Below, piece after piece: positions 17,028 to 56,608 of a stretch of DNA of 64,000 bases. Position numbers and translations under genes: made by a program. How positions within the stretch are numbered: the stretch's first letter is position 1; each line of letters starts with the position of its first letter. The stretch comes from Clostridiales bacterium 38-18 (GTDB taxonomy: Bacteria > Bacillota > Clostridia > Peptostreptococcales > Acidaminobacteraceae): assembly GCA_001897605.1 (NCBI GenBank), contig MKTL01000002.1, forward strand, positions 100,856 through 164,855. Reading direction: 5' to 3'. The notes under the pieces are model-generated. The model worked only from the letters and a program-made list of their open reading frames with translations. It had not been told where the DNA came from and searched no databases.

Positions 17028-17798
17028 ATGAATACTGAAAGTAGAGAAACGAGAGATCGAAGAATTGCGGTTCTTATTGATGCAGATAATGTTTCTGACA
17101 AGTATATCAAATCCATTATAGATGAAGTTTCTAACCATGGGACACCGACGTATAAAAGAATCTATGGGGATTGGACGAAGCCGCAATTGGCATCTTGGAA
17201 GAACGTATTGCTCAACCATTCGATTTCACCAATACAACAATATGGCTACACAACGGGAAAAAATTCTACCGATGCTGCTTTGATTATCGATGCGATGGAT
17301 ATCCTATATTCTAGTAATGTAGATGGCTTTTGTATCGTATCAAGTGACAGTGACTTTACACGGTTAGCCTCTAGATTAAGAGAAGCTGGTATGTATGTTT
17401 TAGGTATGGGGGAAAAGAAAACGCCTACTCCATTTATTGCCGCTTGCGAAAAATTCAAGTACCTTGAGGTGTTAACGGCGACCACCTTGGATCGCCCTGA
17501 GGTAAACAAGTCAAAGACCCATAATGTTAAGGATGCCATGATAACTAAGGAAGAGTTAATCGATGTAATAAAAGCAATTATCAGTGAAATCTCGGATGAT
17601 GATGGTTGGGCGTTCTTAGGTGAGCTTGGAAGCACACTTAACAAAAGATATCCTGATTTTGACACTCGGAACTATGGCTTTTCTAAGTTAACCCCTTTGG
17701 TTTCTTCATTGAAGCAATTTGATATTCGGTCTAGAAAAACCAATAACCCTAGCGTCAGCCTCAAGTACATTCGCATAAAGGAAAAGGGAGAGAACTAA
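17028..17798 (+). CDS. NYN-domain (PIN-like) nuclease with LOTUS/OST-HTH tail
   Basis: 256 residues. The NYN domain (about 10-150) begins with RRIAVLIDADNVSDKY, has acidic residues in GKNSTDAALIIDAMD and the FCIVSSDSDFTRLASRLREAG block; together these are the Asp-rich metal site of LabA-like PIN nucleases. Residues about 175-250 form an OST-HTH/LOTUS module (GWAFLGELGSTLNKRYPDFD, GFSKLTPLVSSL), a putative RNA-binding domain. Such proteins are thought to be RNases; the target is unknown. It starts a same-strand run and ends 2 bases before the EFR1 gene. Confidence 0.85.
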   Translation: MNTESRETRDRRIAVLIDADNVSDKYIKSIIDEVSNHGTPTYKRIYGDWTKPQLASWKNVLLNHSISPIQQYGYTTGKNSTDAALIIDAMDILYSSNVDGFCIVSSDSDFTRLASRLREAGMYVLGMGEKKTPTPFIAACEKFKYLEVLTATTLDRPEVNKSKTHNVKDAMITKEELIDVIKAIISEISDDDGWAFLGELGSTLNKRYPDFDTRNYGFSKLTPLVSSLKQFDIRSRKTNNPSVSLKYIRIKEKGEN

Positions 17799-17800
17799 CC

Positions 17801-18577
17801 ATGAAAATTTTGGCATTTTATTTTTCAGGGACTGGCAATACAGCGTTTATCGTAAACCAATTACAAAATTCGTTTGGTAAGAACAATGTTGAGATGGAAT
17901 GCATCAATATAGAAAATTATGAAGCTACAGATGACGATAAAATTGCGAGTGCAGATTATCTTCTGTTTGCATACCCAGTCTATGGAGCGATGGCACCAAT
18001 GATCATGTGGCGATTTGTTAAGCAAATTGCTTCACACCTAGAGGACAAGCAAGCAATTGTCATTGCCAATCAAATGCTATTTTCAGGAGATGGTGGTTCT
18101 TATCTTGCTAGAATTTTGAGAAAATGCCATGCTCAGATCGTTGCTATTGAACATTTCAAAATGCCTACCAATTTATCTGATGTTAAAATGTTCAAAGTGA
18201 AAAATGGCTCTCAGGCAAAGGCATTGGCACTTAAAGCAGAGCAGCAAATCGATCTGTTTTGCTCTGATTTTGTTAAAGGTATAAGATTTAAACGAGGTGA
18301 TGGTGCTGGTTCAATTTTATTGGGATCACTACTTCGCATTCCATTTTCTAAAGGTGAAAGAAAATGGGTTAAGAAAGTTAAAATAAATGAAAGCAAGTGT
18401 ACAAGGTGCGGAAAGTGTGAGCGAGAATGTCCAGTGGAGGCACTGCGTTTGGTTGACGGAAAAATCAGCCAAGTGGCAGATTGTACGCTTTGTTATAGAT
18501 GTGTAAATCGATGTCCAGATTTGGCGATTTCTATTTTAGGCAAAAATGGACCTTCTAAAAGATACGAAGGATTATGA
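17801..18577 (+). CDS. EFR1-family flavodoxin / ferredoxin protein
   Basis: 258 residues. An N-terminal flavodoxin-like domain (YFSGTGNTAFIV binds FMN phosphate; AYPVYGAMAPM) is fused to a C-terminal pair of 4Fe-4S motifs (CTRCGKCERECP and CTLCYRCVNRCP, about residues 200-245). EFR1 proteins are electron carriers of anaerobes with unknown partners. The gene begins 2 bases after the NYN gene and ends 7 bases before dapF, so the three are co-transcribed. Confidence 0.88.
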   Translation: MKILAFYFSGTGNTAFIVNQLQNSFGKNNVEMECINIENYEATDDDKIASADYLLFAYPVYGAMAPMIMWRFVKQIASHLEDKQAIVIANQMLFSGDGGSYLARILRKCHAQIVAIEHFKMPTNLSDVKMFKVKNGSQAKALALKAEQQIDLFCSDFVKGIRFKRGDGAGSILLGSLLRIPFSKGERKWVKKVKINESKCTRCGKCERECPVEALRLVDGKISQVADCTLCYRCVNRCPDLAISILGKNGPSKRYEGL

Positions 18578-18584
18578 GGTTGAA

Positions 18585-19388
18585 ATGGTTAGATACAAGA
18601 AGGTACAAAGTAATGGTAACAATTTCTTATTACTCGATAATAGAGGTCAGATTTACTCTGACGTAAAGCTTAGGGACATGACCATAAGAGATTGTGATAT
18701 TAAAAAAGGAATTGGTGCAGATGGTATGCTGGTGATAGAGCCGTCTAATGATGCCGAGTTTAAAATGAGAATTATCAATGCCAATGGCTTTGAAAGTGAA
18801 ATGTGTGGTAATGGCGCAAGATGTATCGCTAAATACGCCTATGATCATGGTATAGCAGACAAGATGATGTCCTTTGAGACCTTAGCGGGTAAAATTGGAG
18901 CAGTCGTCACCGATACACGCGTGAAGGTTACCATGGGAGACTACGAGTTACCTGACCAAAACGTTTTTGTACTCGATGGGGTCAATTATCGTTTTATGAC
19001 ACTGGGTGTCCCACATGTGGTCGTATTCGAGGATGAGAATAAGCCACTTTCAAGAGCTGAGATGAAGCAAATTGGTTATCGCTTTGATATGAACCATGAT
19101 GTCTTTGAACGTGGTACCAATGTGAATTTTGTTAGGAAAATAGGAAAAGATGAGATTGAGGTCATCACCTACGAACGCGGTGTTGAAGACATCACTGATT
19201 CTTGTGGGACGGGTTCGTGTGCCAGTGCAGTTATGGCAGCAAGCTTTTATGGCATGCACTCACCGATTAGTGTTCAAAATATTGGTGGCGTTAATATGGT
19301 TCACTTTGTACAGTCGGCTTCTGATGTGACCGTAGAGCTAGAGGGTCATGTCGGTTATTCAGGGAGTATTGAATGTGAGGATTTATAG
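18585..19388 (+). CDS. dapF: Diaminopimelate epimerase
   Basis: 267 residues. DapF interconverts LL- and meso-diaminopimelate for lysine and/or cell wall synthesis. Both catalytic-cysteine motifs are present: EMCGNGARCIAKYA (near residue 70) and SCGTGSCASAVMA (near 210); the N-terminus KVQSNGNNFLLLD is typical. I chose ATG 18585 because GAGG sits 6 bases upstream and conserved sequence begins there; an in-frame ATG at 18546 would overlap the EFR1 gene by 32 bases. In view of the D-Asp bridge genes elsewhere in the window, its DAP may mainly serve lysine synthesis; this is inference. Confidence 0.9.
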   Translation: MVRYKKVQSNGNNFLLLDNRGQIYSDVKLRDMTIRDCDIKKGIGADGMLVIEPSNDAEFKMRIINANGFESEMCGNGARCIAKYAYDHGIADKMMSFETLAGKIGAVVTDTRVKVTMGDYELPDQNVFVLDGVNYRFMTLGVPHVVVFEDENKPLSRAEMKQIGYRFDMNHDVFERGTNVNFVRKIGKDEIEVITYERGVEDITDSCGTGSCASAVMAASFYGMHSPISVQNIGGVNMVHFVQSASDVTVELEGHVGYSGSIECEDL

Positions 19389-19396
19389 GGGTAGTT

Positions 19397-20467
19397 GTGA
19401 ATCAGTCAATGAAGCTTAATCAACCAACGAAACTCAATTTACCACCAGAATCGGTGGTTTATACAGGCAAATTCAAAAATACTGAGACCCATTTTCAGGT
19501 GTATTTCTATGACGATCATGGTGCTACCCTAGAGGTCTATAGAGACAATGATATCGATACGATGTTTTCTGAGATCAAAAACCGCGAAATGAAGGCTTGG
19601 ATTAACATTATTGGACTAAACTGTATCGACACGATGCTCGCTTTGGGCGATAGGCTGTCGTTATCAATGCTTGTTCTTGAAGATATCGTCCATGTTTCGC
19701 AGAGAAGTAAGATTGAAAGACATGAATCGTTCTTGTTTACCATTGTAAAAATGATTTATCAAACAGAGGCTTCAGGTGTGATCCATGAGCATCTGTCTCT
19801 TGTACTCAAGGATAAACTGGTGATTACCTTCCAAGAGAATGAAGGCGATGTATTTGATGGAATAAGAAAGCGGCTTACTGAAGAGAGAAGCCGTATGAGA
19901 GCTAGAGGGACCGATTATTTGTACTATGCATTGCTAGACGCTATCGTGGATCATCAGCTCGAAATTTTATACGGCATTGGCAATCTGATAGACACCTACG
20001 ATCGACAGCTCATTGAAACCGAAAAGCTATCCATTAATCTACTTTTTGAACTTAGAAAACAGATTATGCTGATTCGTTCGGAGGTGGCACCATTTAAGGA
20101 AATTCTTAAAGAATTATACGACAAAGAGGATCATTTTATTAAAGATGAGACACGTGTTTTTATAAGAGATGTATCGGACCATGTCAATCATGTAAACGAT
20201 CAGGTTGGTCTCTATCAGGATATGGTTACAAATTTGTATGATATGAATATGAATTATTCAAGCAATCGATTAAATCATATTATGACGATTTTAACCGTTT
20301 TTTCAGCTATCTTTATTCCATTAAATTTTATGACTGGTTTTTTCGGAATGAATTTCAAGCATTTTCCAGGATTGGACAACCCGCTTGCCATACCAATATT
20401 TTTATTTACAGCTGCCGGAATTGCTATCATTATGGGGATATTTTTCCTGAGAAAAAAATGGTACTAA
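19397..20467 (+). CDS. corA: CorA-family Mg2+/Co2+ transporter
   Basis: 356 residues with a GTG start after TAGGGG. The large cytosolic N-terminal domain and long stalk helix (about 150-290) lead to two C-terminal membrane spans. The channel signature GMN is in GFFGMNFKHFPG, between the spans, and the protein ends with a short basic tail (FFLRKKWY), as in CorA channels. It moves Mg2+ (or Co2+) inward along its gradient. It lies 8 bases after dapF and 13 before the NRDE gene in the same run. Confidence 0.92.
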   Translation: MNQSMKLNQPTKLNLPPESVVYTGKFKNTETHFQVYFYDDHGATLEVYRDNDIDTMFSEIKNREMKAWINIIGLNCIDTMLALGDRLSLSMLVLEDIVHVSQRSKIERHESFLFTIVKMIYQTEASGVIHEHLSLVLKDKLVITFQENEGDVFDGIRKRLTEERSRMRARGTDYLYYALLDAIVDHQLEILYGIGNLIDTYDRQLIETEKLSINLLFELRKQIMLIRSEVAPFKEILKELYDKEDHFIKDETRVFIRDVSDHVNHVNDQVGLYQDMVTNLYDMNMNYSSNRLNHIMTILTVFSAIFIPLNFMTGFFGMNFKHFPGLDNPLAIPIFLFTAAGIAIIMGIFFLRKKWY

Positions 20468-20480
20468 GAAAAGAGGTCTT

Positions 20481-21236
20481 ATGTGTACACTTGCAATTGC
20501 ATATAAAGTAGTTAAGGACTATCCCTTAATATTTTTGGGCAATCGAGATGAATTTTATAAAAGACCAAGTCAAAATGCCACCTTGAAAAAGGGTGTAATC
20601 TGTGGAACAGATTTAGAAAAAGGTGGTACTTGGACGGGTATCAATGAGAGAGGCGCTTTTGCCTTCATTACGAATTATAGAGATTTTACAAAGCATGTGG
20701 ACCAGCCACTATCGAGAGGTGAGCTGACACGTACTTTTTTGCATTCGAATAGCTTACCGATTACCTATTTAAATTCGCTTTCAGAAAAGCCACATCTTTA
20801 TGATCCATATAACCTTATCGTGGGCGATATGAATCAGTTAGGGTTTTATTCTAATATTGAGAAAAAAGTTCGTATACTCGAGCCAGGTGTCTATGGATTA
20901 AGCAACGGTTTATTGAATTCGAATTGGCCAAAGGTTGACGCCATACGATTCGGGCTAAGCAGCTTGATTGAATCAGGGCGTGTGCTTGAAATAAACGCTT
21001 ATTTTGATATTTTAGAGGATGCGCACAAGTATGATAAAGGCCTGCCAGATACGGGTATCAAGGCAGAGCTTGAACATGATTTGTCCGCTTTATTCATTGC
21101 ACTTGATGGCTATGGCACACGCTTTGAAACGGTGATCATCGTCGATCATTCAGGACAGGTTCAGTATTACGAAAAGTCAAGAGATGAAGAGGGTAAGTGG
21201 CATTTACAGAGCTTGAATTTACAAATCCTTAAGTAA
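20481..21236 (+). CDS. NRDE-family (TANGO2-like) protein
   Basis: 251 residues. It begins MCTLAIAY and has FLGNRDEFYKRPS, the NRDE motif that names the family, then GGTWTGINERGAFAFITNYRD. The Cys after the initiator Met suggests an N-terminal nucleophile fold. The biochemical role in bacteria is not established; the eukaryotic relative TANGO2 has been linked to haem and lipid handling. It belongs to the corA/nhaC run. Confidence 0.88.
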   Translation: MCTLAIAYKVVKDYPLIFLGNRDEFYKRPSQNATLKKGVICGTDLEKGGTWTGINERGAFAFITNYRDFTKHVDQPLSRGELTRTFLHSNSLPITYLNSLSEKPHLYDPYNLIVGDMNQLGFYSNIEKKVRILEPGVYGLSNGLLNSNWPKVDAIRFGLSSLIESGRVLEINAYFDILEDAHKYDKGLPDTGIKAELEHDLSALFIALDGYGTRFETVIIVDHSGQVQYYEKSRDEEGKWHLQSLNLQILK

Positions 21237-45612: not shown

Positions 45613-46473
45613 CTACAAAAAAGCATTGCCTATAAACACATAATTAAGATACTTCTCTGCAAGATCTCTCGCCATAGCAAGTGTATCCAGCCTCGTTTTT
45701 GGAACGGTCATCTGATACGCAGGGAAGTAGCGACTGATGTGCACAGGGATATCACTATTTAATTCGCCCACCCATTTGAAAGCAGACTCTAGCATCACAG
45801 GATCCGTATTGTATCCGTCGATAAGTAAGAAGGTGAGTTCAACATGTGTTAGACCGATGCATTTTGAAATTGTATTTAACACAGGCGATAACTGACCGTC
45901 ACAAATCTCTCGATAGAAATCATCAGAATAACTTTTTAAGTCGATGTTCATCGCATCGATATAGGGGAGAAGCTCGAGTAAGGGGGCTTCTTCAATAAAG
46001 CCATTGGTGACCAGTACATTTACAAGACCGTATTGCTTGGCTAGCTTACAACACTCGAGAACGTATTCAAACCATATAGTTGGCTCGTTATAAGTGTAGG
46101 CAATTCCGATAGAGCCGTTTTGCATTGCCATATTAATCGCTTCAGAAGGAGATGTTTGACGACATGATCCTTTAAAATGAACGAGTTCATGATTTTGGCA
46201 AAAATTACAGTTAAAATTACAACCGGAGGTACCAATGGAAAAGACCGTCGATCCAGATTCAAATCGCGCAAGTGGTTTTTTTTCTATCGGATCATAGGCA
46301 TATGAAACGACTTTGCCATAGCTGGTGGTATAGAGAACCTGGTCTTGATTCAGTCGCACACCACATCTACCATAATGTCCTTCAACGATCTTACAACGAT
46401 GTGGACAAAGGGTGCATTCAAGGCTGTTGTCGCTGTGAACTTTCCAGTATTTTGCAATCCTTTTTTTATCCAT
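45613..46473 (-). CDS. amrS: AmmeMemoRadiSam-type radical SAM protein, shortened 3' end
   Basis: 286 residues. N-terminal CTLCPHRCKIVEGHYGRCGV, then the radical SAM cluster motif GTSGCNFNCNFCQNHEL (CxxxCxxC), GIAYTYNEPTIWFEY and the AmrS pattern VHISRYFPAYQM. AmrS belongs to a three-protein system with AMMECR1-like and Memo-like partners, whose genes are absent here. Family members continue past YVFIGN with about 30-40 residues that include a C-terminal Cys pair (NTYCPNC-like); here the frame ends NAFL-stop beside the rod-like repeat, so it appears truncated. GGAGTG lies before the ATG. Confidence 0.85.
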   Translation of the reverse strand: MDKKRIAKYWKVHSDNSLECTLCPHRCKIVEGHYGRCGVRLNQDQVLYTTSYGKVVSYAYDPIEKKPLARFESGSTVFSIGTSGCNFNCNFCQNHELVHFKGSCRQTSPSEAINMAMQNGSIGIAYTYNEPTIWFEYVLECCKLAKQYGLVNVLVTNGFIEEAPLLELLPYIDAMNIDLKSYSDDFYREICDGQLSPVLNTISKCIGLTHVELTFLLIDGYNTDPVMLESAFKWVGELNSDIPVHISRYFPAYQMTVPKTRLDTLAMARDLAEKYLNYVFIGNAFL

Positions 46474-46572: not shown

Positions 46573-48060
46573 ATGAAATTACAATTATGTCTACAAGGAA
46601 TTCATTATAATAGATTAAGTGGCAATCTTGATATCGATATCAAAAATGTCGCATTTGATTCTAGAAAAGTAACACCAGACACGGTGTTTGTTGCCATCGT
46701 TGGATTTAAATCCGATGGTCATGCCTATATTCGTCAAGCAATTGCACAAGGAGCAACTGCAATAGTGATTAGTCGACCAGATGCCGTTATAGAGGCTGAA
46801 GGCGTTACATTTATTCATGTTGAGGATACACGCTTTGCTTTAGCGGGTATTGCCTCAAAGTTTTATGGACAGCCAACACAAAATCTAAATTTAATCGGTA
46901 TAACAGGAACCAATGGCAAGACGTCCATTAGCTATTTTATTAAAAGTGTTTTAGCCGTTTTAAAATACAAAACTGGGGTTGTCGGTACAATGGGTACCTT
47001 AATTGACGATATGAAGATAGATACCCCGAACACAACACCTGAATCATTGACGCTTCAATCCATTTGCGCTGATATGGTCAAGGCAGAGGTATCGCACTGT
47101 ATTATGGAAGTCTCATCACATGCACTCGATTTATCGAGAGTGGCATTTTGTGAGTTTGATTATGGTATTTTTACCAACCTAACGCCAGATCATTTAGAAC
47201 TACATAAGGATATGGAACAATATTATCAGGCGAAGGCAAAGCTCTTTAAAATGACCAAAAAAGCAAATATTATTAATATGGATGACTCATATGGTGCAAG
47301 ACTCTGCAAAGAACTCACTGGTAACGGCGGTGTAGACGTCTTTACGTATGGACTTTCTCCCAATGCAGATATCTATCCTGAGAACATTCGTCCACATGCT
47401 GATTATACAGAGTATACTGCAGTAACACCTAGTGGTCGTGTGGAAATCAAGGTTCATATCCCTGGTGAAATTTATGTTTTAAATACCTTAGCGGTGATTG
47501 CATGGGCGGTTGCAGAAGGACTAGACCTACCAGTTGTAGCAGCGGGCATAGAGGCTTTAAAAGGTGTCAGAGGCAGATTTGAAACGGTCTATCATGCACA
47601 CGGCAGAAAAGTCGTCATAGATTTTGCACATACAGAGGACGGTCTTGATAAAGCACTTTCTACCTTAAGACCATTTGTAGCTGGAAAGCTAAAGCTCGTT
47701 TTTGGCGTATACGCAGCGCCTGGACATGACGGAGACGATAAACGAAAAGCAATGGGAGAAGTCGCTGCAAGGCTATCCGATTATGCGTACATTACATCAG
47801 ATAATCCAAAGGAACAAGATCCTCAGATGATAATTGATGAAGTTGCAACTGCATTTGCTACGATTGGATCACACTTTGAAAAAATAGTCGATCGCAAGAT
47901 AGCGATAGAAAAAGCACTAGATGAAATGGCGGAAGGCGATACTTTATTAATCTCAGGAAAAGGTCATGAAACCGCTCAGGTGATTGGTAAAGAAGATGTT
48001 CCGTTCAATGAAACCGAAATCGTTCAAAATAAAATGAAAGCAATTTTTGAGGGGAGATAG
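46573..48060 (+). CDS. murE: UDP-MurNAc-tripeptide synthetase (MurE ligase)
   Basis: 495 residues. Mur ligase with N-terminal UDP-binding domain (DSRKVTPDTVFVAIVGFKSD), ATP-binding GITGTNGKTSISYF, the EVSSHALDLSRVAF block and the C-terminal domain. It adds the third stem residue to UDP-MurNAc-L-Ala-D-Glu. The substrate-selecting motif reads DNPKEQDP: not DNPR (meso-DAP enzymes) nor DNPA (Lys enzymes), so the amino acid added is uncertain (Lys or Orn would fit the D-Asp ligase nearby). Start ATG 46573 follows GGAGG by 5 bases. One base separates it from asnB. Confidence 0.93.
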   Translation: MKLQLCLQGIHYNRLSGNLDIDIKNVAFDSRKVTPDTVFVAIVGFKSDGHAYIRQAIAQGATAIVISRPDAVIEAEGVTFIHVEDTRFALAGIASKFYGQPTQNLNLIGITGTNGKTSISYFIKSVLAVLKYKTGVVGTMGTLIDDMKIDTPNTTPESLTLQSICADMVKAEVSHCIMEVSSHALDLSRVAFCEFDYGIFTNLTPDHLELHKDMEQYYQAKAKLFKMTKKANIINMDDSYGARLCKELTGNGGVDVFTYGLSPNADIYPENIRPHADYTEYTAVTPSGRVEIKVHIPGEIYVLNTLAVIAWAVAEGLDLPVVAAGIEALKGVRGRFETVYHAHGRKVVIDFAHTEDGLDKALSTLRPFVAGKLKLVFGVYAAPGHDGDDKRKAMGEVAARLSDYAYITSDNPKEQDPQMIIDEVATAFATIGSHFEKIVDRKIAIEKALDEMAEGDTLLISGKGHETAQVIGKEDVPFNETEIVQNKMKAIFEGR

Positions 48061-48061
48061 T

Positions 48062-49909
48062 ATGTGTGGTTTTGTAGGATATACACATGTTGAGAAAATA
48101 GATGGTGTTGAAGTTATTAAAAAAATGTCAGATGCAATCGCGCATAGAGGACCAGACAGTGATGGTGCTTATGTAGACGAACAGGTTGCACTTGGCTTTA
48201 GAAGATTGAGTATCATCGACTTAACCGACGAAGGCAAACAACCGATGTTCAATGAAAATGAGGATATCGTTTTGGTCTTTAACGGTGAAGTCTACAATTA
48301 TCAGGCATTAAGAGAAGAGTTGATTCAGAAGGGACACCGTTTCCATTCACATACTGACAGTGAAGTCATTCTTCATGGTTATGAAGAGTATGGTGTGAAA
48401 ATCCTGGATCGTCTGAGAGGGATGTTTGCATTTTCGATTTGGGATATGAAGCTAAAAAAACTCTTTATTGCGAGAGATTATTTTGGAATCAAGCCACTTT
48501 ATTATACGCAAAATACAACCGATGGCTCTTTAATCTTTGGTTCAGAGATCAAATCGTTTTTACAGCATCCAAAATTCATAAAGAAACTGAATAAAAAAGC
48601 GCTTAGACCTTATTTAACGTTTCAATATTCGTCTATGGATGAGACTTTTTTTGAAGGCGTCTATAAATTGAAGCCAGCGCATTATTTAGTTTACGAGGCG
48701 GGCAAGTTACAGATGACCCCATACTGGCACAACGAGTTTAAACCCATCAGCAGAGACCTTAAGGAAAATGTCGAATCAATTAAGCAAATTCTCAAAGAAT
48801 CCGTTGAATACCATAGAATAAGTGATGTAAAGGTTGGCTCCTTCTTATCAGGTGGCATTGACTCAAGTTATATCACTGCACTTTTAATGCCAAATAAGAC
48901 TTTTTCTGTCGGCTTTACCGAGTATGAGGCGATGTTCAACGAGACAAAGCTTGCGGGAGAGTTATCAGATCTTCTCGGAATTGAGAACCATAAAAAAATC
49001 ATTACGCCAGAAGAGTGTTTTGATGCACTTCCTAAAATCCAATACCATATGGATGAACCACAATCGAACCCATCCTCAGTACCGCTTTACTTCTTAGCTG
49101 GGCTTGCAAGAGAACACGTTACGGTTGTTCTATCTGGCGAAGGCGCGGATGAAATTTTTGCAGGGTATCCTTGGTATCAAAATTCGCCTGCGATTGATGC
49201 TTATGAGAAGGTGCCATTTGGTGTTAGACGCGCAGTATCCAAAGTAGCGAAAGGATTGCCTAACAACCGCGTGACGAACTTCTTAGTAAAAGGTGGCATG
49301 GCTGTAGAGGAAAAATTCATCGGGGAAGCAAAAGTATTTGATGAAAATGATGCGATGCAGTTGCTTAAACCCGACTATCAAGTGGGACCAAGCGTTAGAA
49401 GCATTACTCAGAAGGTGTATGATAAAGTAAAGGACGAGGACGATTTGACAAAGATGCAATACCTCGACTTACATCTATGGCTACCTGGAGATATCCTTTT
49501 AAAAGCGGATAAAATGAGTATGGCGCATTCGCTTGAGCTTAGGGTGCCGTTCTTAGACCGCGAAGTTATGCAGTTTGCTTCAACCCTACCAAAAGAACAA
49601 CGTGTCAACCGTGAAAATACAAAATATGCGCTTCGCGTCGCTGCCAATGAAATCCTACCAGAAGCATGGGCAAAAAGACCAAAGCTCGGTTTCCCAGTTC
49701 CGATCAAGTATTGGATGAAGGAAGAAAAATTCTATAATTTAATCAAAGGTGAGTTTGACAGTGCACATGCTGCGGAGTTCTTTGATACGAAGCTACTTGT
49801 GAAGTATTTGGATGAACATTATACAGGCACACGTAACCGTGCAAGATACATTTGGACGGTGTACGTATTTTTAATTTGGCACAAACAGTTCTTCCCAGAA
49901 ACCATCTAA
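48062..49909 (+). CDS. asnB: AsnB/AsnH-type glutamine-dependent amidotransferase
   Basis: 615 residues. Class II glutamine amidotransferase domain starts MCGFVGY with Cys2 as nucleophile and AIAHRGPDSDG; the synthetase domain has VGSFLSGGIDSSYI (PP-loop), LSGEGADEIFAGYPWY and DKMSMAHSLELRVPF. By sequence it is an asparagine synthase. Paralogues amidate cell-wall residues: LtsA/AsnB on DAP and lactococcal AsnH on bridge D-Asp. Placement between murE and a D-aspartate ligase gene favours the latter. Starts 1 base after murE; ends 12 bases before the ligase. Confidence 0.9.
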   Translation: MCGFVGYTHVEKIDGVEVIKKMSDAIAHRGPDSDGAYVDEQVALGFRRLSIIDLTDEGKQPMFNENEDIVLVFNGEVYNYQALREELIQKGHRFHSHTDSEVILHGYEEYGVKILDRLRGMFAFSIWDMKLKKLFIARDYFGIKPLYYTQNTTDGSLIFGSEIKSFLQHPKFIKKLNKKALRPYLTFQYSSMDETFFEGVYKLKPAHYLVYEAGKLQMTPYWHNEFKPISRDLKENVESIKQILKESVEYHRISDVKVGSFLSGGIDSSYITALLMPNKTFSVGFTEYEAMFNETKLAGELSDLLGIENHKKIITPEECFDALPKIQYHMDEPQSNPSSVPLYFLAGLAREHVTVVLSGEGADEIFAGYPWYQNSPAIDAYEKVPFGVRRAVSKVAKGLPNNRVTNFLVKGGMAVEEKFIGEAKVFDENDAMQLLKPDYQVGPSVRSITQKVYDKVKDEDDLTKMQYLDLHLWLPGDILLKADKMSMAHSLELRVPFLDREVMQFASTLPKEQRVNRENTKYALRVAANEILPEAWAKRPKLGFPVPIKYWMKEEKFYNLIKGEFDSAHAAEFFDTKLLVKYLDEHYTGTRNRARYIWTVYVFLIWHKQFFPETI

Positions 49910-49921
49910 ATAGGAGGCGGT

Positions 49922-51151
49922 ATGAACACCGATTTTTTACCTGTCATACTTGGAACCGATAGCAACGCATACGGCATGGCAAAAGCATTTCATATGGCCT
50001 ATGGCATAAAAAGCTTAGTCGTTGGACAAGGTGCGCTTTTCACGACGTCCGGATCGACGATTTTAGACTTAAAGATCATACCAGACCTACAGTCTGAGCA
50101 CTTTGCAGTTCGATTAAACGACCTTGCAAAAACATTAAAGGCGACTTATCAAAAGTTGATTCTCGTCGCAAGTAGCGATGGGTACACGGAACTCATCATT
50201 CAAAATAAAAAAGCACTCGAAAATCAGTATGTCGTTCCATTTATCGACGAAGACCTGATGCTTACTCTAAACTCAAAAGCGGGTTTTTATGAAACTTGTG
50301 AGAAATACGGGCTAAGCTATCCAGAAACTGTCGTGGTTCGCAAGACCGATTTACCTACCATTGATGCAATCGTCGATGCTTTGGCGTGGCCATATCCAGT
50401 GGTTGTTAAACCATCTGACAGCATGCGCTATTTTAACGCAAAGTTTGAAGGCAAGCAAAAAGCATATATATTAGAATCTCCAGAAAAAGTAAAGGCTGTC
50501 ATTCGTACGATTTATCAGTCAAGCTATGATCAAGAGTTGATTCTGCAAGAGTATATCAAAGGCGATGACACGGGTATGCGCGTTTTAAACTGCGTATCTG
50601 GTCCTGATGGTAAAGTCAGACTGATGTGTCTAGGACAACCCCTTCTTGAAGACCCAACGCCGACACTCATCGGCAATTATACAGCGATTATCGATGCTTA
50701 TGATGAGGTGGTCTTTGCAGAATACAAAGCATTTCTTGAAGGGATTGGCTATGTTGGTTTTTCTAACTTCGACATGAAGTACGATAAAAGAACTGGAAAA
50801 TACAAAGTATTTGAAATCAACCTTAGACAAGGTAGAAGCAGCTTTTTCGTAACGGGAAGCGGCTATAATCAAGGTGCTTATCTGGCAGATGCATTTATCT
50901 ATGAAACCGTTCATGAGACCATCTACTCAGACAAGCCACATCTTTGGCTAGGGATACCAAAACGCGTACTTAAGAAGTACCTTGAAGATACGAAGCTGAA
51001 GCATGAAGTCGCACTTAGAATCGATCGAGATCAAACCAGTACGACGTTGTTCTATAGTGCAGATAAGAATATCAACCGTAACCTTCGCGTTTATCGCTAC
51101 TATCACAGATATCATCAAATCTTTAAGAATCATTTTGTAAAGAAAAAATAA
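49922..51151 (+). CDS. ATP-grasp D-aspartate ligase (Asl-like), cell-wall bridge
   Basis: 409 residues. Its start (LPVILGTDSNAYGMAKAFH), LVASSDGYTELI, NKKALENQY, FIDEDLML and the region KAGFYETCEKYGLSYPETVV line up by eye with Asl-fm of Enterococcus faecium, which ligates D-Asp to the side-chain amine of the stem-peptide diamino acid. ATP-grasp features: VVKPSDSMRYF, LQEYIKGDDTGM and the metal-binding FEINLRQGRSSFFVTG. AGGAGG before the ATG. Cytosolic. Followed 12 bases later by a FemX-like gene, and further on by an aspartate racemase. Confidence 0.85.
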   Translation: MNTDFLPVILGTDSNAYGMAKAFHMAYGIKSLVVGQGALFTTSGSTILDLKIIPDLQSEHFAVRLNDLAKTLKATYQKLILVASSDGYTELIIQNKKALENQYVVPFIDEDLMLTLNSKAGFYETCEKYGLSYPETVVVRKTDLPTIDAIVDALAWPYPVVVKPSDSMRYFNAKFEGKQKAYILESPEKVKAVIRTIYQSSYDQELILQEYIKGDDTGMRVLNCVSGPDGKVRLMCLGQPLLEDPTPTLIGNYTAIIDAYDEVVFAEYKAFLEGIGYVGFSNFDMKYDKRTGKYKVFEINLRQGRSSFFVTGSGYNQGAYLADAFIYETVHETIYSDKPHLWLGIPKRVLKKYLEDTKLKHEVALRIDRDQTSTTLFYSADKNINRNLRVYRYYHRYHQIFKNHFVKKK

Positions 51152-51163
51152 GGAGGCATTTAG

Positions 51164-52207
51164 ATGCCGTTATTAGATAAAACCAACCGCGAGCAGGTTA
51201 GGGCGTATCAAGACTTCGTTCAAGGATCACCCTTTGCCACTGCGACTCAGGACATGAACTGGTCGATTGTAAAACGCGGATGGGAAGACGTTCAGTTTTA
51301 TACGGAAGAAGATGGACAACTCACAGGTGCGATGTCGATACTGATCAAACGCACCTTTGGCTTTGCCCTTTTATATGCGCCAAGGGGACCAGTTTGCGAC
51401 CCGTTAGATTTTAAAACGCTTAAAGCATTGCTTGCTGAAATTAATACCTTTGCTAAAAAGAATCGGGCTTTTGTTTTGAGATTTGATCCAGAAGTGACCT
51501 ATGATGAAAAACTCGTAACTACTTACGAAAACGAAGGCTTTAAAGTTAGAGGACGTGGCGTTGATAAAAATGCGCTCATACAACCCATCTATAATATGAT
51601 TTTAAATTTAGACGGCGATACCGAAGAAACCTTACTTGCGAGATTTAGCCAAAAAACACGATACAACATCAACCTTGCAAGGCGAAAAGGCGTGACCGTC
51701 AGTTACGATACCTCTGAAGCTTATTTGAAGAAATTTTATGAGCTTTATGAAATCATGTCCAAACGCAACCGTCTCGTCATACGTGGTTACGACTACTTCG
51801 AGGCGATGATGAAGGCATTTGAAGGTAACATTCGCATCTATCTCACTGAACATGAGGGCGATGTCTTATCGGGTGCAATCGGTATTCATTATGGCGATAA
51901 GCTCTGGTACATCTATGGTGCCAGCTCAAACGAGAAACGCAACTTGATGCCCAATTACCTAATGCAATGGGAAATGATCTTATGGGGACTTGAGACCGGT
52001 ATCAAACGATATGACTTTGGTGGCGTATTTGAACTCAACAAAGAGGATGGCCTATATAAGTTTAAAGAGGGCTTTTGTCGTGAAGAAGGGGTAACTGAAC
52101 TTATTGGAGAAATCGATAAGGTTTATAAGCCCATTATCTATAATTTGTTTACTGAGGTCTATCCAAGACTTCAAAGACTTAAAATCAAACTACTTAGAAA
52201 TGGATAA
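51164..52207 (+). CDS. FemX/FemAB-family peptidoglycan bridge aminoacyltransferase
   Basis: 347 residues with the double GNAT fold of Fem transferases: SPFATATQDMNWSIVKRGWE, LLYAPRGPVCD, FSQKTRYNINLARRKGV, MSKRNRLVIRGYDYF, the GAIGIHYGDKLWYIYGASSN strand-helix and LMPNYLMQWEMILWG, then RYDFGGVFE. It transfers an amino acid from aminoacyl-tRNA to the lipid-linked precursor. It lacks the long helical-arm coiled coil of FemA. Its presence with an Asl ligase suggests either two bridge types or a mixed bridge. Part of the murE run. Confidence 0.87.
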   Translation: MPLLDKTNREQVRAYQDFVQGSPFATATQDMNWSIVKRGWEDVQFYTEEDGQLTGAMSILIKRTFGFALLYAPRGPVCDPLDFKTLKALLAEINTFAKKNRAFVLRFDPEVTYDEKLVTTYENEGFKVRGRGVDKNALIQPIYNMILNLDGDTEETLLARFSQKTRYNINLARRKGVTVSYDTSEAYLKKFYELYEIMSKRNRLVIRGYDYFEAMMKAFEGNIRIYLTEHEGDVLSGAIGIHYGDKLWYIYGASSNEKRNLMPNYLMQWEMILWGLETGIKRYDFGGVFELNKEDGLYKFKEGFCREEGVTELIGEIDKVYKPIIYNLFTEVYPRLQRLKIKLLRNG

Positions 52208-52225
52208 AGTAAGGAGAAGATCACA

Positions 52226-53413
52226 ATGAGAAGAAATAGAAATCCTTTTCCATTTAAAGCAATCATTATTATTTTGGCGATTGTTTTAGCTGGAACTATG
52301 GTTTACAATAGTGGCGTTTTAATTGATATAGGGCTATTGAAGGGAAAAATACCAGATGATATCGGCATAAAACCTAATGATCCTCGTGTCATTGCAAAAT
52401 TTGATGAAACTGTAGATCGAAAAGCAATTAAAGAAATTGTTGATAAAGCGATTAATTTGATAACTGGAAAAGAAGAACAGGGAAGCGTGAAAGTGGTTGC
52501 AGAGGACTCAAAGAGTGGCAAGGGCTTGGCTGGCTTGACATTTGAATTAAGAGATGCAATAACCAATGAGGTCCTAGATACAGTGACAACCGGTTCTGAC
52601 GGAACTGCGATGACCCTCAAAGTAGATTATCGCCAAGCCTATAGCTTAGTTCAAACTGAATCCGTTGATCCATTCGAAGTGAATCAGGAAGCGATTGTTT
52701 TTGAAATGGCTGCACCGATTATGGAGCTCCATATGAACGAAGTCGTTAATCCTTATGTGGTCAATTATACGATTGATGATCTAGGGCAAGCGACTGTTAC
52801 TGATATGACGCTCAATTTACCTGAGCTCCTTCAAAAACCAGAATTACCTAATGGGTGTGAAATTACTGCATTAACCTCTATACTAAATTTTTATAAGTTT
52901 GATATCGATAAAGTAACTTTATCAAATGATTATTTACCTAAATCACCATTTTTCAAGAAAAATGGCAAGCTTTATGGAGCCGATCCAAACAAAGCATTTT
53001 CAGGAGATCCAGCAGATCCAGCAGGGTGGTTCGTCTATGCAGCACCGACCGTTCAAGCCGCTAATGCATATCTTCGCGATCAAAATGCTAGCTATGAGGC
53101 GCTTGATTTAACTGGGAGCTCAGAAGAACAGATTATGTCGTATGTTGCATCTGGTCATCCTGTTGGCATTTGGGCGACTAGAGATTTAAGCCTTGCAAAC
53201 TATGGCTATGGCTGGTATCTTGAAGCAGATGATTCTTATTTTAGTGCTGCGACAAATCTTCATTGTATGGTGATTTATGGCTATGTGGGGGATCAACTTT
53301 ATGTGATGGACCCACTACAAGGCAATATGATTTACGATAAAGCGACTTTATTTGCTAGCTTTGAGAGCTTGGGCTCAAGAGCGATGATCGTTAAGGAGTT
53401 AGATAATGAGTAA
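52226..53413 (+). CDS. Exported C39-like cysteine peptidase with Cna-B/SpaA-type domain
   Basis: 395 residues. N-terminal signal anchor (about 9-30), a Cna-B/prealbumin-like beta domain (about 88-175: GSVKVVAEDSKSGKGLAGL, FELRDAITNEVLDTVTTGSD), then a Peptidase_C39_2 domain (about 195-390) with the Cys in LPNGCEITALTSIL, His in NLHCMVIYGYVGD and Asp in YVMDPLQG. The catalytic trio appears complete. Possibly a wall-localised peptidase or transpeptidase acting on the bridges made by its neighbours. It overlaps racD by 8 bases. Confidence 0.82.
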   Translation: MRRNRNPFPFKAIIIILAIVLAGTMVYNSGVLIDIGLLKGKIPDDIGIKPNDPRVIAKFDETVDRKAIKEIVDKAINLITGKEEQGSVKVVAEDSKSGKGLAGLTFELRDAITNEVLDTVTTGSDGTAMTLKVDYRQAYSLVQTESVDPFEVNQEAIVFEMAAPIMELHMNEVVNPYVVNYTIDDLGQATVTDMTLNLPELLQKPELPNGCEITALTSILNFYKFDIDKVTLSNDYLPKSPFFKKNGKLYGADPNKAFSGDPADPAGWFVYAAPTVQAANAYLRDQNASYEALDLTGSSEEQIMSYVASGHPVGIWATRDLSLANYGYGWYLEADDSYFSAATNLHCMVIYGYVGDQLYVMDPLQGNMIYDKATLFASFESLGSRAMIVKELDNE

Positions 53414-54116
53414 TTACACTTTAGGTGTAATAGGCGGTATGGGTCCTCTTGCAACCTCTGTCTATTATGAGCGCATAATTGAAAAAACAGATGCCACTAA
53501 GGATCAGGATCATTTGGATATGATTGTTCTCAGTCATGCGACGATGCAGGATCGCACACAAGCGATTTTATCAGGTCAATATGAAGGCTTCTTAGATCAA
53601 ATCGGTAAAGATATCGCCTTACTCGAGCAAATCGGCGTACAGCATATAGCGATTCCATGCAACACCTCTCATTATTTTATGCCTCAAATGAAGGCAATGA
53701 CGAAAGTGCATATTATCGATATGGTGGAAGAAACCGCTATTGAAATTAAAAACCGATTTGGTGCGGGAAAACGAGTAGGGATTCTTGCGACGAATGGCAC
53801 CATTCATGCGAAAACCTATGAAAATGCGTGTCTGGAGGAAGGATTAATCTTTGTCAAACCAGAGGGCGCACTTCAGGAGTCTGTCATGAAGACCATTTAT
53901 GATATTAAAGCGGATTGCTTCGCTGATGTGTCTAATTTTGAAACCATTGTGGCAACAATGATGGGTGAGTATGCCTGTGATTGTGTCATATTAGCATGTA
54001 CAGAGCTTTCATTAATTCCAATTAGTGAAAGCATTAGAACCGTAGTTATCGATGCGATGGACGTTTTAGTAGAGCGCTCTATCACTTACAGTGGTAAAAC
54101 GGTTATCAATCGTTAA
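53406..54116 (+). CDS. racD: Aspartate/glutamate racemase family, probable aspartate racemase
   Basis: 236 residues. LGVIGGMGPLATSVYYERII opens the fold; the two catalytic cysteines are in AIPCNTSHYFMPQM (near residue 82) and VILACTELSLIPI (near residue 194). Family members that start GGMGP are mostly aspartate racemases. It supplies D-Asp for the ligase encoded three genes upstream. Overlaps the C39-like gene (frame shift, coupled translation) and ends the operon before a strong terminator. Confidence 0.88.
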   Translation: MSNYTLGVIGGMGPLATSVYYERIIEKTDATKDQDHLDMIVLSHATMQDRTQAILSGQYEGFLDQIGKDIALLEQIGVQHIAIPCNTSHYFMPQMKAMTKVHIIDMVEETAIEIKNRFGAGKRVGILATNGTIHAKTYENACLEEGLIFVKPEGALQESVMKTIYDIKADCFADVSNFETIVATMMGEYACDCVILACTELSLIPISESIRTVVIDAMDVLVERSITYSGKTVINR

Positions 54117-54128
54117 TAAGTAATATAT

Positions 54129-54177
54129 CCTGATTTCTTCTGTACGATGTGACAAGTTGAAATCAGGATTTTTTATA
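54129..54177 (+). terminator. Terminator of the murE-racD cluster
   Basis: ATCCTGATTTC pairs with GAAATCAGGAT around a 21-base loop, followed by TTTTTTATAATTT. Confidence 0.85.
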
Positions 54178-54237: not shown

Positions 54238-55197
54238 ATGAAAATAGTCGTATTAGATGGCAGAACATTGAACCCTGGTGATTTATCGTGGGAGCCTTTA
54301 AAGGCATTAGGTGAAGTTACAATTTATGAGCGAACTGAACGAGAGCAAGTGGTGGAAAGAAGTCTTGAAGCAGAGATTCTCTTTACAAATAAAACCTTAA
54401 TTCGCAAAGAAACCATCGATCAGCTTCCTAGCCTTAAATATATAGGGGTGTTGGCAACGGGCTTTAACATTGTCGACGTGGATTACGCAAAAGAGAAGGG
54501 GATTGTCGTTACAAATGTACCCTCCTATGGCACACAGGCGGTTGCGCAATTTGTTTTCGCCCATCTGCTTGAAATTTGTCATCATATACCCGATCATGTC
54601 GCTTCGGTTCGCGAAGGTAAGTGGAACCGACAGGCTGATTTTTGCTATTGGAATCAAAGATTGATTGAGCTTGCTGGGAAAACGTTGGGGATTATCGGCA
54701 CTGGTCGAATAGGTGTTGAAACCGCAAAAATTGCAAGGGCGTTTGGTATGCGCATTATCGCATATACCCCAAGACCTAAGCCAGAGCTTATAGGTGGTGA
54801 CTTTGATTATGTTTCATTTGACCAATTATTGGCATCTTCAGATGTGATCAGCTTACATTGCCCATTGACGGATGAGACGAGAAACATTTTAAATCATGAT
54901 GCCTTTTCAAAGATGAAAGAGGGTGTTATCATCATCAATACCTCTCGAGGCCCATTGATAGATGAGTCCGCGCTAGTGGCTGCTTTTAAAAGTGGCAAGG
55001 TTTATGCAGCTGGACTAGACGTAATGGCGGTAGAACCACCAAAAGAGAGAAGTCCACTTTATGATATCCCAAACTGTCATATTACACCTCACATTGCATG
55101 GGCACCTGTTGAAGCAAGAGGCAGATTACTCGGTATTGCAGTAGATAATTTGAAAGCCTTTCTAGAAGGAAATATCATCAATCAGGTTAATCCCTAG
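54238..55197 (+). CDS. D-2-hydroxyacid dehydrogenase (glycerate dehydrogenase-like)
   Basis: 319 residues. NAD-binding motif TLGIIGTGRIGVETAKIA (about 147-165), catalytic Arg in NTSRGPLIDESAL, Glu in DVMAVEPP and His in ITPHIAWAP. Length and the PRPKPE region fit glycerate dehydrogenase/hydroxypyruvate reductase; the exact hydroxyacid cannot be fixed. GGAAGGAG before the ATG. Separated from the murE cluster by a terminator and 50 bases from the ALDH gene, probably a two-gene unit. Confidence 0.88.
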   Translation: MKIVVLDGRTLNPGDLSWEPLKALGEVTIYERTEREQVVERSLEAEILFTNKTLIRKETIDQLPSLKYIGVLATGFNIVDVDYAKEKGIVVTNVPSYGTQAVAQFVFAHLLEICHHIPDHVASVREGKWNRQADFCYWNQRLIELAGKTLGIIGTGRIGVETAKIARAFGMRIIAYTPRPKPELIGGDFDYVSFDQLLASSDVISLHCPLTDETRNILNHDAFSKMKEGVIIINTSRGPLIDESALVAAFKSGKVYAAGLDVMAVEPPKERSPLYDIPNCHITPHIAWAPVEARGRLLGIAVDNLKAFLEGNIINQVNP

Positions 55198-55246
55198 AAA
55201 AATAGGGCATAAATGAGGTAATGGATTCAAATAAGGAGGTCATACA

Positions 55247-56608
55247 GTGGAACAAATACTATTAAAACAAAATGAATACTTCCGTAGTGGTGCGACGCGC
55301 CCTATCCCTTTTAGAATCAAGCAATTAGAAAAACTAAGAGAAGCTGTTCAGGTCTTCGAAAAAAAATTGACACAGGCATTATACATTGACCTCGGTAAAT
55401 CAGAGTTTGAGGCCTATTCAACAGAGATCGGCTATGTACTACACAGTATAGAACATACGGTGAAGCACTTGGAAAAGTGGAGTAAGGAGCCAAGCATTCG
55501 ACTACCCTTTTACCTACAGCCAGGATCAGGTGAGGTCAAATACGATCCGTATGGAGCTGTGTTAATTATCGCACCTTTCAATTATCCTTTTCAGTTATTA
55601 GTGGAACCTTTAATTGGTGCCCTTTCAGCTGGAAATACAGCTGTACTTAAGCCTTCTGATTATACGCCAAATGTTGAAAAAGTGGTTAAAGAAATGATTG
55701 AAGCGTATTTCGAGCCTGAATATGTTGCAGTGATTACCGGAGGAAGAGCTGTCAATGAAGCCTTGTTAAAATTGAGATTTGACTATATTTTCTTTACCGG
55801 AAGTCCCAATGTAGGCAAGGTGGTTATGAAGGCGGCTGCAGAGAATTTAATCCCTGTAACGCTTGAATTAGGTGGGAAAAGTCCTGCAATTGTTCATAAG
55901 GATGCAAACCTTAAGGTTGCAGCTCTTCGAATCGCATGGGGTAAGTTTTCAAATGCGGGACAAACCTGCATTGCACCTGATTATGTTTACGTTCATAAAG
56001 AGGTAAGTGAAGCCTTTAAGGCACACCTTTTGAATACCATTCTAGATTTTTATGGACCTTTACCGATACAAAGTCCCGATTATGGCAGGATTGTTAACGA
56101 AAAAGCCATGCACCGCTTAATTGATTTACTTGATCATGACAAAGTCATACATGGTGGTCAATACGATTTGACACAGAGATACTTTGCGCCAACGGTTATG
56201 ACTGAAGTTACTTGGTCAGATCAAGTGATGCAGGATGAAATTTTTGGACCGATATTGCCGATCCTGACCTATGATTCACTTGAAAATGTAATAGATACTG
56301 TTTCTCGAGGAGAAAAACCTCTAGCGTTGTATCTCTTTAGCGAGGATCAGTTGGTTCAAAACTACGTGGTTGACAATCTTAGATTTGGCGGTGGGTGTAT
56401 TAATGATACACTTCTTCACGTCGCAACGCCATTTTTACCTTTTGGAGGTGTAGGTCATTCTGGGATGGGCTCATATCATGGCAAGGATAGCTTTAGGACC
56501 TTTACTCATAAAAAGGCCATACTAAAAAGAAGTACTAAATTAAGCAATCATTTAACCTATCCGCCGTATAAAAATAAGGTTGGCCTGATAAAAAAAATAC
56601 TAAAATAA
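55247..56608 (+). CDS. Aldehyde dehydrogenase, class 3 type
   Basis: 453 residues, the shorter ALDH3 length. GTG start after AGGAGG. Motifs: IIAPFNYPFQLLVEPLIGAL, FTGSPNVGKVVMKAA, the Glu in TLELGGKSPAIVHKDAN and the nucleophile Cys in NAGQTCIAPDYV; near the end FLPFGGVGHSGMGSYHGKDS. Oxidises medium-chain or aromatic aldehydes with NAD(P)+. The basic, hydrophobic C-terminal end (KNKVGLIKKILK) may touch the membrane, as in some class 3 enzymes. Confidence 0.9.
   Translation: MEQILLKQNEYFRSGATRPIPFRIKQLEKLREAVQVFEKKLTQALYIDLGKSEFEAYSTEIGYVLHSIEHTVKHLEKWSKEPSIRLPFYLQPGSGEVKYDPYGAVLIIAPFNYPFQLLVEPLIGALSAGNTAVLKPSDYTPNVEKVVKEMIEAYFEPEYVAVITGGRAVNEALLKLRFDYIFFTGSPNVGKVVMKAAAENLIPVTLELGGKSPAIVHKDANLKVAALRIAWGKFSNAGQTCIAPDYVYVHKEVSEAFKAHLLNTILDFYGPLPIQSPDYGRIVNEKAMHRLIDLLDHDKVIHGGQYDLTQRYFAPTVMTEVTWSDQVMQDEIFGPILPILTYDSLENVIDTVSRGEKPLALYLFSEDQLVQNYVVDNLRFGGGCINDTLLHVATPFLPFGGVGHSGMGSYHGKDSFRTFTHKKAILKRSTKLSNHLTYPPYKNKVGLIKKILK

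Follow-up and report, generated by a model that had tools for sequence, protein, structure and literature searches.

Which peptidoglycan cross-bridge would be built by an operon that carries both an ATP-grasp ligase for D-amino acids and a tRNA-dependent FemX transferase? This question is raised by six genes (murE, asnB, asl, femX, a gene for a C39-like peptidase, and racD; Table 1) at 46573–54116 of a 64,000-nucleotide stretch, here called the window, of contig MKTL01000002.1 from Clostridiales bacterium 38-18, one of the four Fusibacter genomes in our sample. A passage of PMC2922099 ascribes D-amino-acid bridges to ATP-grasp ligases and glycine or L-amino-acid bridges to Fem ligases. We conclude that the operon probably builds and tends a cross-bridge holding both a D- and an L-amino acid. 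The predicted bridge would be stem diamino acid-L-Xaa-D-Asp/Asn, similar to the A4alpha types. Other genomes and loci are cited below by our own numbers (G and L).

A conserved six-gene operon

The six open reading frames (ORFs) lie on one strand with successive gaps of 1, 12, 12, 18 and −8 bases, and a purine-rich site is found upstream of every start. A GTG 6 bases upstream of the murE ATG at 46573 is a possible start, but the GGAGGTG site favours the ATG. The hairpin 3' of racD has an 11-bp stem followed by a T run, and none of 200 shuffled sequences folds as stably; it is absent from a simple terminator scan, which does not permit an outer loop of this length. Spacing, ribosome-binding sites and terminator all check out, and the six-gene operon is real. 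An earlier interpretation made from the letters alone (the sequence-only reading) had described such a one-strand run with gaps of 1–18 bases or overlaps and a terminator, and had proposed to look for its gene order in related Clostridia. The whole operon is present in all four sampled Fusibacter genomes, so its order is not due to chance.

Pfam and NCBIfam models support murE, the AsnB-type amidotransferase, the FemAB/FemX protein, the C39 protein (Peptidase_C39_2 plus SpaA) and the Asp/Glu racemase. For Asl there is no Pfam match, its NCBIfam matches are weak and all below the cut-off, and a sequence search of the PDB gives no match at E ≤ 1. The protein is 72% identical to one of Fusibacter bizertensis, on whose contig the same genes, order and neighbours are found. 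It shares 39–46% identity with proteins from Enterococcus, Vagococcus and Tetragenococcus and 37% with a Latilactobacillus curvatus protein, whose gene adjoins an amino acid racemase gene. racD adjoins these Enterococcaceae asl relatives in 8 of 9 loci, the ninth lying at a contig end, and at three Vagococcus loci murE and asnB are also beside asl. Among the matches listed in a plasmid search, the full-length ones are from lactobacilli and Subdoligranulum.

Our Asl tree has 69 rows, from 30 of the order's 110 Asl genomes and the named genomes; loci found later across the phylum, such as that of the 50% identical Asl of G397, lie outside it. For this tree and those of AsnB, MurE and FemX, each locus was reduced to a single copy and ORFs beyond set length limits were removed beforehand. 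Asl groups with G048, then with G123, and then with the Enterococcaceae relatives (support 96/77), and 18 ATP-grasp proteins of about 25% identity form a separate clade (100/100). The AlphaFold model (pLDDT 92.7) has an ATP-grasp fold, with PurK, PylC and L-amino acid ligases among the structural matches. Glu298, Asn300, Arg302 and Arg305 are invariant in 25 alignment rows, and we take them to be the conserved Glu/Asn and Arg residues near the C-terminal lobe. By its grouping the ATP-grasp protein is a predicted D-aspartate ligase of the Asl family, where the sequence-only reading had also placed it; that reading thereby passes the phylogenetic check which it had itself named as able to refute it. 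The aspartate racemase of that reading fits as well: RacD matches aspartate racemase 1jfl, and its two cysteines stand in PCNT and ACTE contexts at both expected places, presumably as the catalytic pair of such racemases.

Asl is a single match at E ≤ 0.001 in its own genome. D-Asp bridges by themselves would be nothing unusual in this order, because Asl is found in 110 of its 393 genomes (E ≤ 1e-40); in the family it is found in 4 of 37 genomes, all Fusibacter. FemX is the unusual partner in the locus. It is of the Weissella viridescens FemX type by sequence, in agreement with its first assignment, with the same size, a phmmer match of 1e-62 to FemX structures, a FemAB Pfam match, and the aligned residues of the UDP-MurNAc-pentapeptide site present. 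We assume the roles of these residues and W. viridescens as the source of the structures. Different from W. viridescens, the Fusibacter femX is directly behind asl; its amino acid preference cannot be read from sequence. The gene is a single match at E ≤ 1e-8 in its genome, and a plasmid search with FemX gives matches of about 30% identity.

Recurrent proximity of asl and femX

FemX relatives at E ≤ 1e-20 occur in 10 of the 393 genomes of the order and are full-length in 6. Asl is present in five of these six (the four Fusibacter and G048), always with the two genes adjacent. A phylum-wide sample of 388 genomes has 11 with Asl, 148 with FemX and 5 with both, namely the host genome, G397, G448, G475 and G510. 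The genes are near each other in all five, being adjacent in the first three and about 3.4 kb apart in the last two. In G475, femX, murJ, murE and asl form one same-strand run, and by ORF sizes and order the arrangement of G510 is the same, with a MurJ-sized ORF as its putative murJ.

The FemX tree takes in the order's loci, a few others and, out of the 148 FemX genomes of the phylum sample, the 30 best loci including that of the window. The Fusibacter, G048, G397 and G448 proteins form one supported group (99/97), within which G448 sits on a long branch and is less surely placed. The sister is G007, which lacks Asl, and the FemX of G475 and G510 are elsewhere. Three metagenome-assembled genomes (MAGs) of Bacilli have distant FemX relatives (23–26% identity), also placed elsewhere, at 1.3–4.2 kb from asl on the opposite strand. 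Since two FemX lineages, plus the distant FemX of Bacilli, lie near asl, the association seems to have more than one origin. The G007 femX (L133, 8629–9831) is from a member of the family with the MurE motifs DDNR/GKAVD and no DapF match.

The neighbouring position of asl and femX in further lineages favours a mixed bridge. This recurrence strengthens what the sequence-only reading had suggested, with the bridge itself still a prediction. RacD would convert L-Asp to D-Asp, which Asl would activate with ATP and join to an amino group of a peptidoglycan precursor. With aminoacyl-tRNA as donor, FemX would add an L-amino acid or glycine to the same precursor. The stem would be provided by the apparently co-transcribed MurE, the sole one detected. 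AsnB would amidate a free carboxyl of the precursor, turning D-Asp into D-Asn or modifying diaminopimelic acid (DAP) if this is residue 3, and the C39 protein would trim or recognise the finished bridge from its anchored position on the outer side of the membrane. We expect the side-chain amine to be used by FemX before Asl acts, because known A4alpha types are built as L-Lys-L-Ala-D-Asp (Sporosarcina highlanderae, in a passage of PMC10628120) and L-Lys-Gly-D-Asp (Nesterenkonia, in a passage of PMC5288335). A Jonesia bridge is given as L-Lys-L-Ser-D-Glu in a passage of PMC3035236. The chemistry of these three, an L-amino acid or glycine plus a D-acid, is that predicted here; in the passages concerned the bridge genes are unnamed.

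Several points weigh against a mixed bridge. Across the phylum the two genes co-occur in 5 of 388 genomes, which does not exceed expectation (Fisher p 0.75), so our argument rests on gene proximity. The order-wide value (p 0.0075) comes from only six full-length FemX genomes, and four of the five genomes with both genes are of one genus; we therefore rejected enrichment within the same genomes as independent evidence. G475 and G510 likewise belong to one genus. A Limosilactobacillus fermentum relative of Asl has no neighbouring racemase gene, the experimentally studied Asl of Enterococcus faecium and Lactococcus lactis lie outside the Asl tree, and 9 of the best 14 C39 genes are directly beside asnB with no asl at the locus. 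FemX and Asl could also compete for one amine rather than act in sequence, and a literature search at listing level found no Fusibacter wall analysis. The remaining points come from MurE and DapF and concern residue 3.

MurE and the third stem residue

MurE is the sole match at E ≤ 1e-20 in its genome, with no second MurE at this threshold elsewhere in the assembly (3.4 Mb, 97.9% complete, 30 contigs). Neither this single copy nor the motif described next figures in the sequence-only reading. Its best equivalog is the DAP ligase. In all four Fusibacter its motif is DNPK where DAP-adding enzymes have DNPR, and the GKGHE motif is kept. The enzyme thus has a Lys where Lys-adding enzymes would have a non-basic fourth residue, and it lacks the DNPR of DAP-adding enzymes, while its descent is within the DAP lineage: the DNPK MurEs form a clade (100/100) nested within the DNPR enzymes, together with G015 and G004 (92/89). 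According to passages of PMC3829189, the Lys-adding MurE of Staphylococcus aureus has DNPA, and the DAP carboxylate is bound by the Arg in Escherichia coli. In the same source the S. aureus enzyme gained no DAP activity when its DNPA was replaced by DNPR; the motif is not the sole determinant and is for this reason a hint only. MurE specificity appears to have changed, and Lys or Orn would be somewhat more likely than DAP as residue 3.

In a less probable alternative, which is compatible with a mixed bridge, the wall would be of the DAP type. MurE would add meso-DAP with Lys in place of the Arg of DNPR, AsnB would amidate DAP, and Asl and FemX would decorate the amine of its D-centre or bridge through it. 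As the mixed-bridge reading leaves residue 3 open, the two overlap. The nested position of the DNPK clade, the kept GKGHE and the best equivalog all speak for DAP, as does the linkage of AsnB to the C39 gene, which holds whether Asl is present or not. Passages report that the DAP-amidating asnB1 of Lactobacillus plantarum adjoins murE (PMC4155827) and that DAP-amidating AsnB homologues include those of Clostridioides difficile and Listeria (PMC8554201). On the other hand, G048, G097 and G116 have a DNPK MurE besides a DNPR copy, which suggests different substrates, and 12 other Asl-linked MurEs (10 groups of loci) have DNPD, DDPG, EDPG, EDAG, EDYG or DDAG, with no Arg and no basic residue at the DAP-binding position. 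Per genome, three MurE types (DNPR, DNPK and QGMD/QGMN) are seen at L085, L086 and L051 of G048, at L138, L155 and L163 of G097, and at L139, L154 and L161 of G116.

DapF bears on both sides of the same question. Its presence in the window (18546–19388) would fit DAP, although DapF is needed for lysine synthesis in any case. Its score is 192.6 bits here (192.6–201.3 in the four Fusibacter) versus 241–284 in G004, G012, G015, G020, G044 and G048; the Asl genome G055 is near the Fusibacter scores with 189 bits, and the DapF search found none in the Asl genomes G038 and G056 or in G007. These low or missing scores speak weakly against DAP. DapF is a poor guide to residue 3, because G056, without a DapF match, still carries a DNPR MurE in addition to the Asl-linked copy. 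In the window (17028–21236) the DapF gene stands between a flavodoxin/ferredoxin protein gene and those for CorA and TANGO2, with an NYN/OST-HTH protein gene ahead.

A proposed AsnB/C39 shell and a possible second bridge-building pair

AsnB, a single match at E ≤ 1e-60 in its genome, has the catalytic Cys2 and the SGGxDS ATP site of the AsnB/LtsA family. In the AsnB tree, which does not include the experimentally studied AsnH proteins, it groups with Asl-less, C39-linked copies of its own family (92/97) and not with the Asl-linked copies of Enterococcaceae. Deeper forks are poorly supported, and the distant C39-linked AsnB of G092 is nearer to Enterococcaceae. A lasso- or graspetide-type peptide pathway was considered for AsnB, the ATP-grasp protein and the C39 protein and rejected: AsnB scores 548 bits with the ordinary asparagine synthase family versus 228 with the lasso cyclase model, and the C39 protein seems to be anchored on the outside of the membrane; no search was made for a precursor peptide.

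The C39 protein is matched 33 times among 297 of the order's genomes. The best 14 are all in one gene run with asnB, and in the five that have asl at the locus (Fusibacter and G048), asl and femX stand between asnB and the C39 gene. Neighbourhoods were covered for these 14, for the 15th (G016), and for the lower-ranked G060, G092 and G192; among the last four only G092 has asnB beside the C39 gene. AsnB is a predicted amidase of a wall precursor. Because it goes with C39 at nine Asl-less loci, its target is uncertain and may be D-Asp or another carboxyl, and it cannot be taken for a dedicated D-Asp amidase, the role suggested by the sequence-only reading. The active-site residues Cys211 and His346 of the C39 protein are kept in 12 of 13 alignment rows. 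Its N-terminal hydrophobic helix suggests an exported, membrane-anchored protein. The model is similar to 3ERV and to CnaB domains, with a weaker likeness to the pseudomurein endoisopeptidase PeiR, and a bridge-cleaving or wall-bound role would be a guess consistent with these matches. A C39/SpaA relative in G016 (L134, 8341–9486) lacks both the active-site Cys and His; its locus has a MurE-2, described next.

G020, G178 and G166 share the gene neighbourhood of the window, with the radical-SAM gene at one end and the two dehydrogenase genes at the other, save for the bridge genes. A second ATP-grasp protein (ATP-grasp-2, about 25% identical to Asl) and a second MurE type (MurE-2) replace MurE, Asl, FemX and RacD there, and an extra 384-residue ORF precedes the dehydrogenases. 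Because the asnB and C39 neighbourhood is kept with this other pair, AsnB and C39 appear to be a shell independent of Asl, within which bridge enzymes are exchanged. ATP-grasp-2 adjoins MurE-2 in G009, G012, G020, G044, G129 and G141 among others. MurE-2 is presumably a working MurE, because it is the sole one found at E ≤ 1e-20 in G009, G012, G036 and G044 (98–99% complete; G036 with 10% contamination). A racemase is in the same run in G012, G044 and G141, and is beside MurE-2, asnB and C39 in G021. ATP-grasp-2 and MurE-2 could be a second bridge-building pair, one not recognised in the literature found by a limited search. We tentatively propose, at lower confidence than the mixed bridge, an exchangeable cross-bridge cassette in the AsnB/C39 shell, which in Fusibacter would consist of the DNPK MurE, Asl, FemX and RacD, without a DNPR MurE, and would make a mixed L/D bridge, possibly on DAP.

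Comparison with known bridges

The closest experimental systems are Aslfm/RacD of E. faecium and AslA/RacD/AsnH of L. lactis, with L-Lys-D-Asp/Asn bridges; D-Asp bridges in enterococci and lactococci are described in a passage of PMC4155827. They share with Fusibacter an Asl-type ligase, an aspartate-type racemase and an AsnB-family amidotransferase, a comparison made through Enterococcaceae relatives, as the exact proteins are outside our trees. Fusibacter adds the DNPK MurE, FemX and the exported C39 protein. Vagococcus has four of the six genes in common as asnB-murE-asl-racD, with no femX or C39 gene in the stretches covered and with a DDPG/GKGSD MurE. The sequence-only reading had regarded the grouping with MurE as unusual, but murE+asl+racD+asnB is already known from Vagococcus and not new, and an Oscillospiraceae MAG has asnB-asl-racD-murE.

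The Vagococcus grouping would also suit a plain D-Asp/D-Asn bridge as in E. faecium and Lactococcus, for which MurE, Asl, RacD and AsnB suffice, with FemX serving a minor bridge or another precursor amine. We consider this unlikely. Although a FemX match at E ≤ 1e-20 is missing from 105 of the order's 110 Asl genomes, an unrelated role leaves unexplained the adjacency of asl and femX in Fusibacter, G048, G397 and G448, where one FemX lineage goes with asl. Still less credible is a bridge other than D-Asp, in which the ATP-grasp protein would ligate D-Glu or D-Ser, or the racemase act on a substrate such as cysteate: RacD reaches 189.8 bits with the cysteate racemase model CuyB (cut-off 190) versus 179.9 with the general TIGR00035, and Asl specificity cannot be read from sequence, but Asl groups with Enterococcaceae relatives whose genes are linked to racD.

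Neighbouring genes

The two dehydrogenase genes downstream are conserved in all four Fusibacter and in G020, G178, G166 and G021. In the other three Fusibacter the 2-hydroxyacid dehydrogenase starts about 15–55 bases past racD (longest ORF), and the transcription unit may extend beyond racD there. An AmmeMemoRadiSam-type radical SAM gene (window 45613–46473) is divergent and adjoins the locus in three of the four Fusibacter and in G020, G178 and G166. GC content is 0.39–0.41 in the six genes and 0.38 in the window, a comparison uninformative about recent foreign origin. A defence system was rejected, PADLOC giving 0 matches for the six proteins.

Table 1. Features of the locus in window coordinates, and loci of relatives with the second ligase pair in coordinates of each locus.
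Feature	Coordinates	Strand	Description and evidence
murE	46573..48060	+	predicted to add stem-peptide residue 3; TIGR01085 438.5 bits, NF001126 514.6 bits; motif DNPK...GKGHE
asnB	48062..49909	+	glutamine-dependent amidotransferase of the AsnB/AsnH/LtsA kind; TIGR01536 548 bits; Cys2, SGGxDS at 263
asl	49922..51151	+	predicted ATP-grasp D-aspartate ligase; tree, racD linkage of relatives, AlphaFold model
femX	51164..52207	+	predicted aminoacyl-tRNA-dependent bridge transferase; FemAB Pfam, phmmer to FemX structures
C39 protein gene	52226..53413	+	N-terminal helix, SpaA/CnaB-like domain, C39-like cysteine peptidase domain; Pfam, 3ERV match, alignment, model
racD	53406..54116	+	aspartate/glutamate-type racemase; TIGR00035 179.9 bits; Cys85, Cys198
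Intrinsic terminator-like hairpin	54127..54174	+	sequence, fold z −4.3
2-hydroxyacid dehydrogenase and aldehyde dehydrogenase genes	54238..56608	+	conserved neighbourhood, outside the proposed pathway
ATP-grasp-2 and MurE-2 loci	L090 8216..10969; L091 6150..9654; L092 6355..9838; L129 3008..5846; L130 3956..6739		MurE motifs KD..QGMD

Implications

The D-Asp part of this locus is of an already known kind. New are the asl-femX pair together with a sole DNPK MurE in a cassette-like locus; in a partial literature search we found no mixed L/D bridge tied to an Asl and FemX gene pair. Mixed L/D bridges have so far been listed as chemotypes, and here they would correspond to a recurring gene pair. 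If this pair is a signature of mixed bridges, genome sequences could reveal the type of bridge, and the order in which a tRNA-dependent and an ATP-dependent ligase act on one precursor would be testable with two purified enzymes. Fusibacter is a free-living anaerobe that carries both kinds of bridge enzyme in one operon with its sole detected MurE gene, and a cassette swap beside that gene would mean a bacterium changing its wall chemistry.

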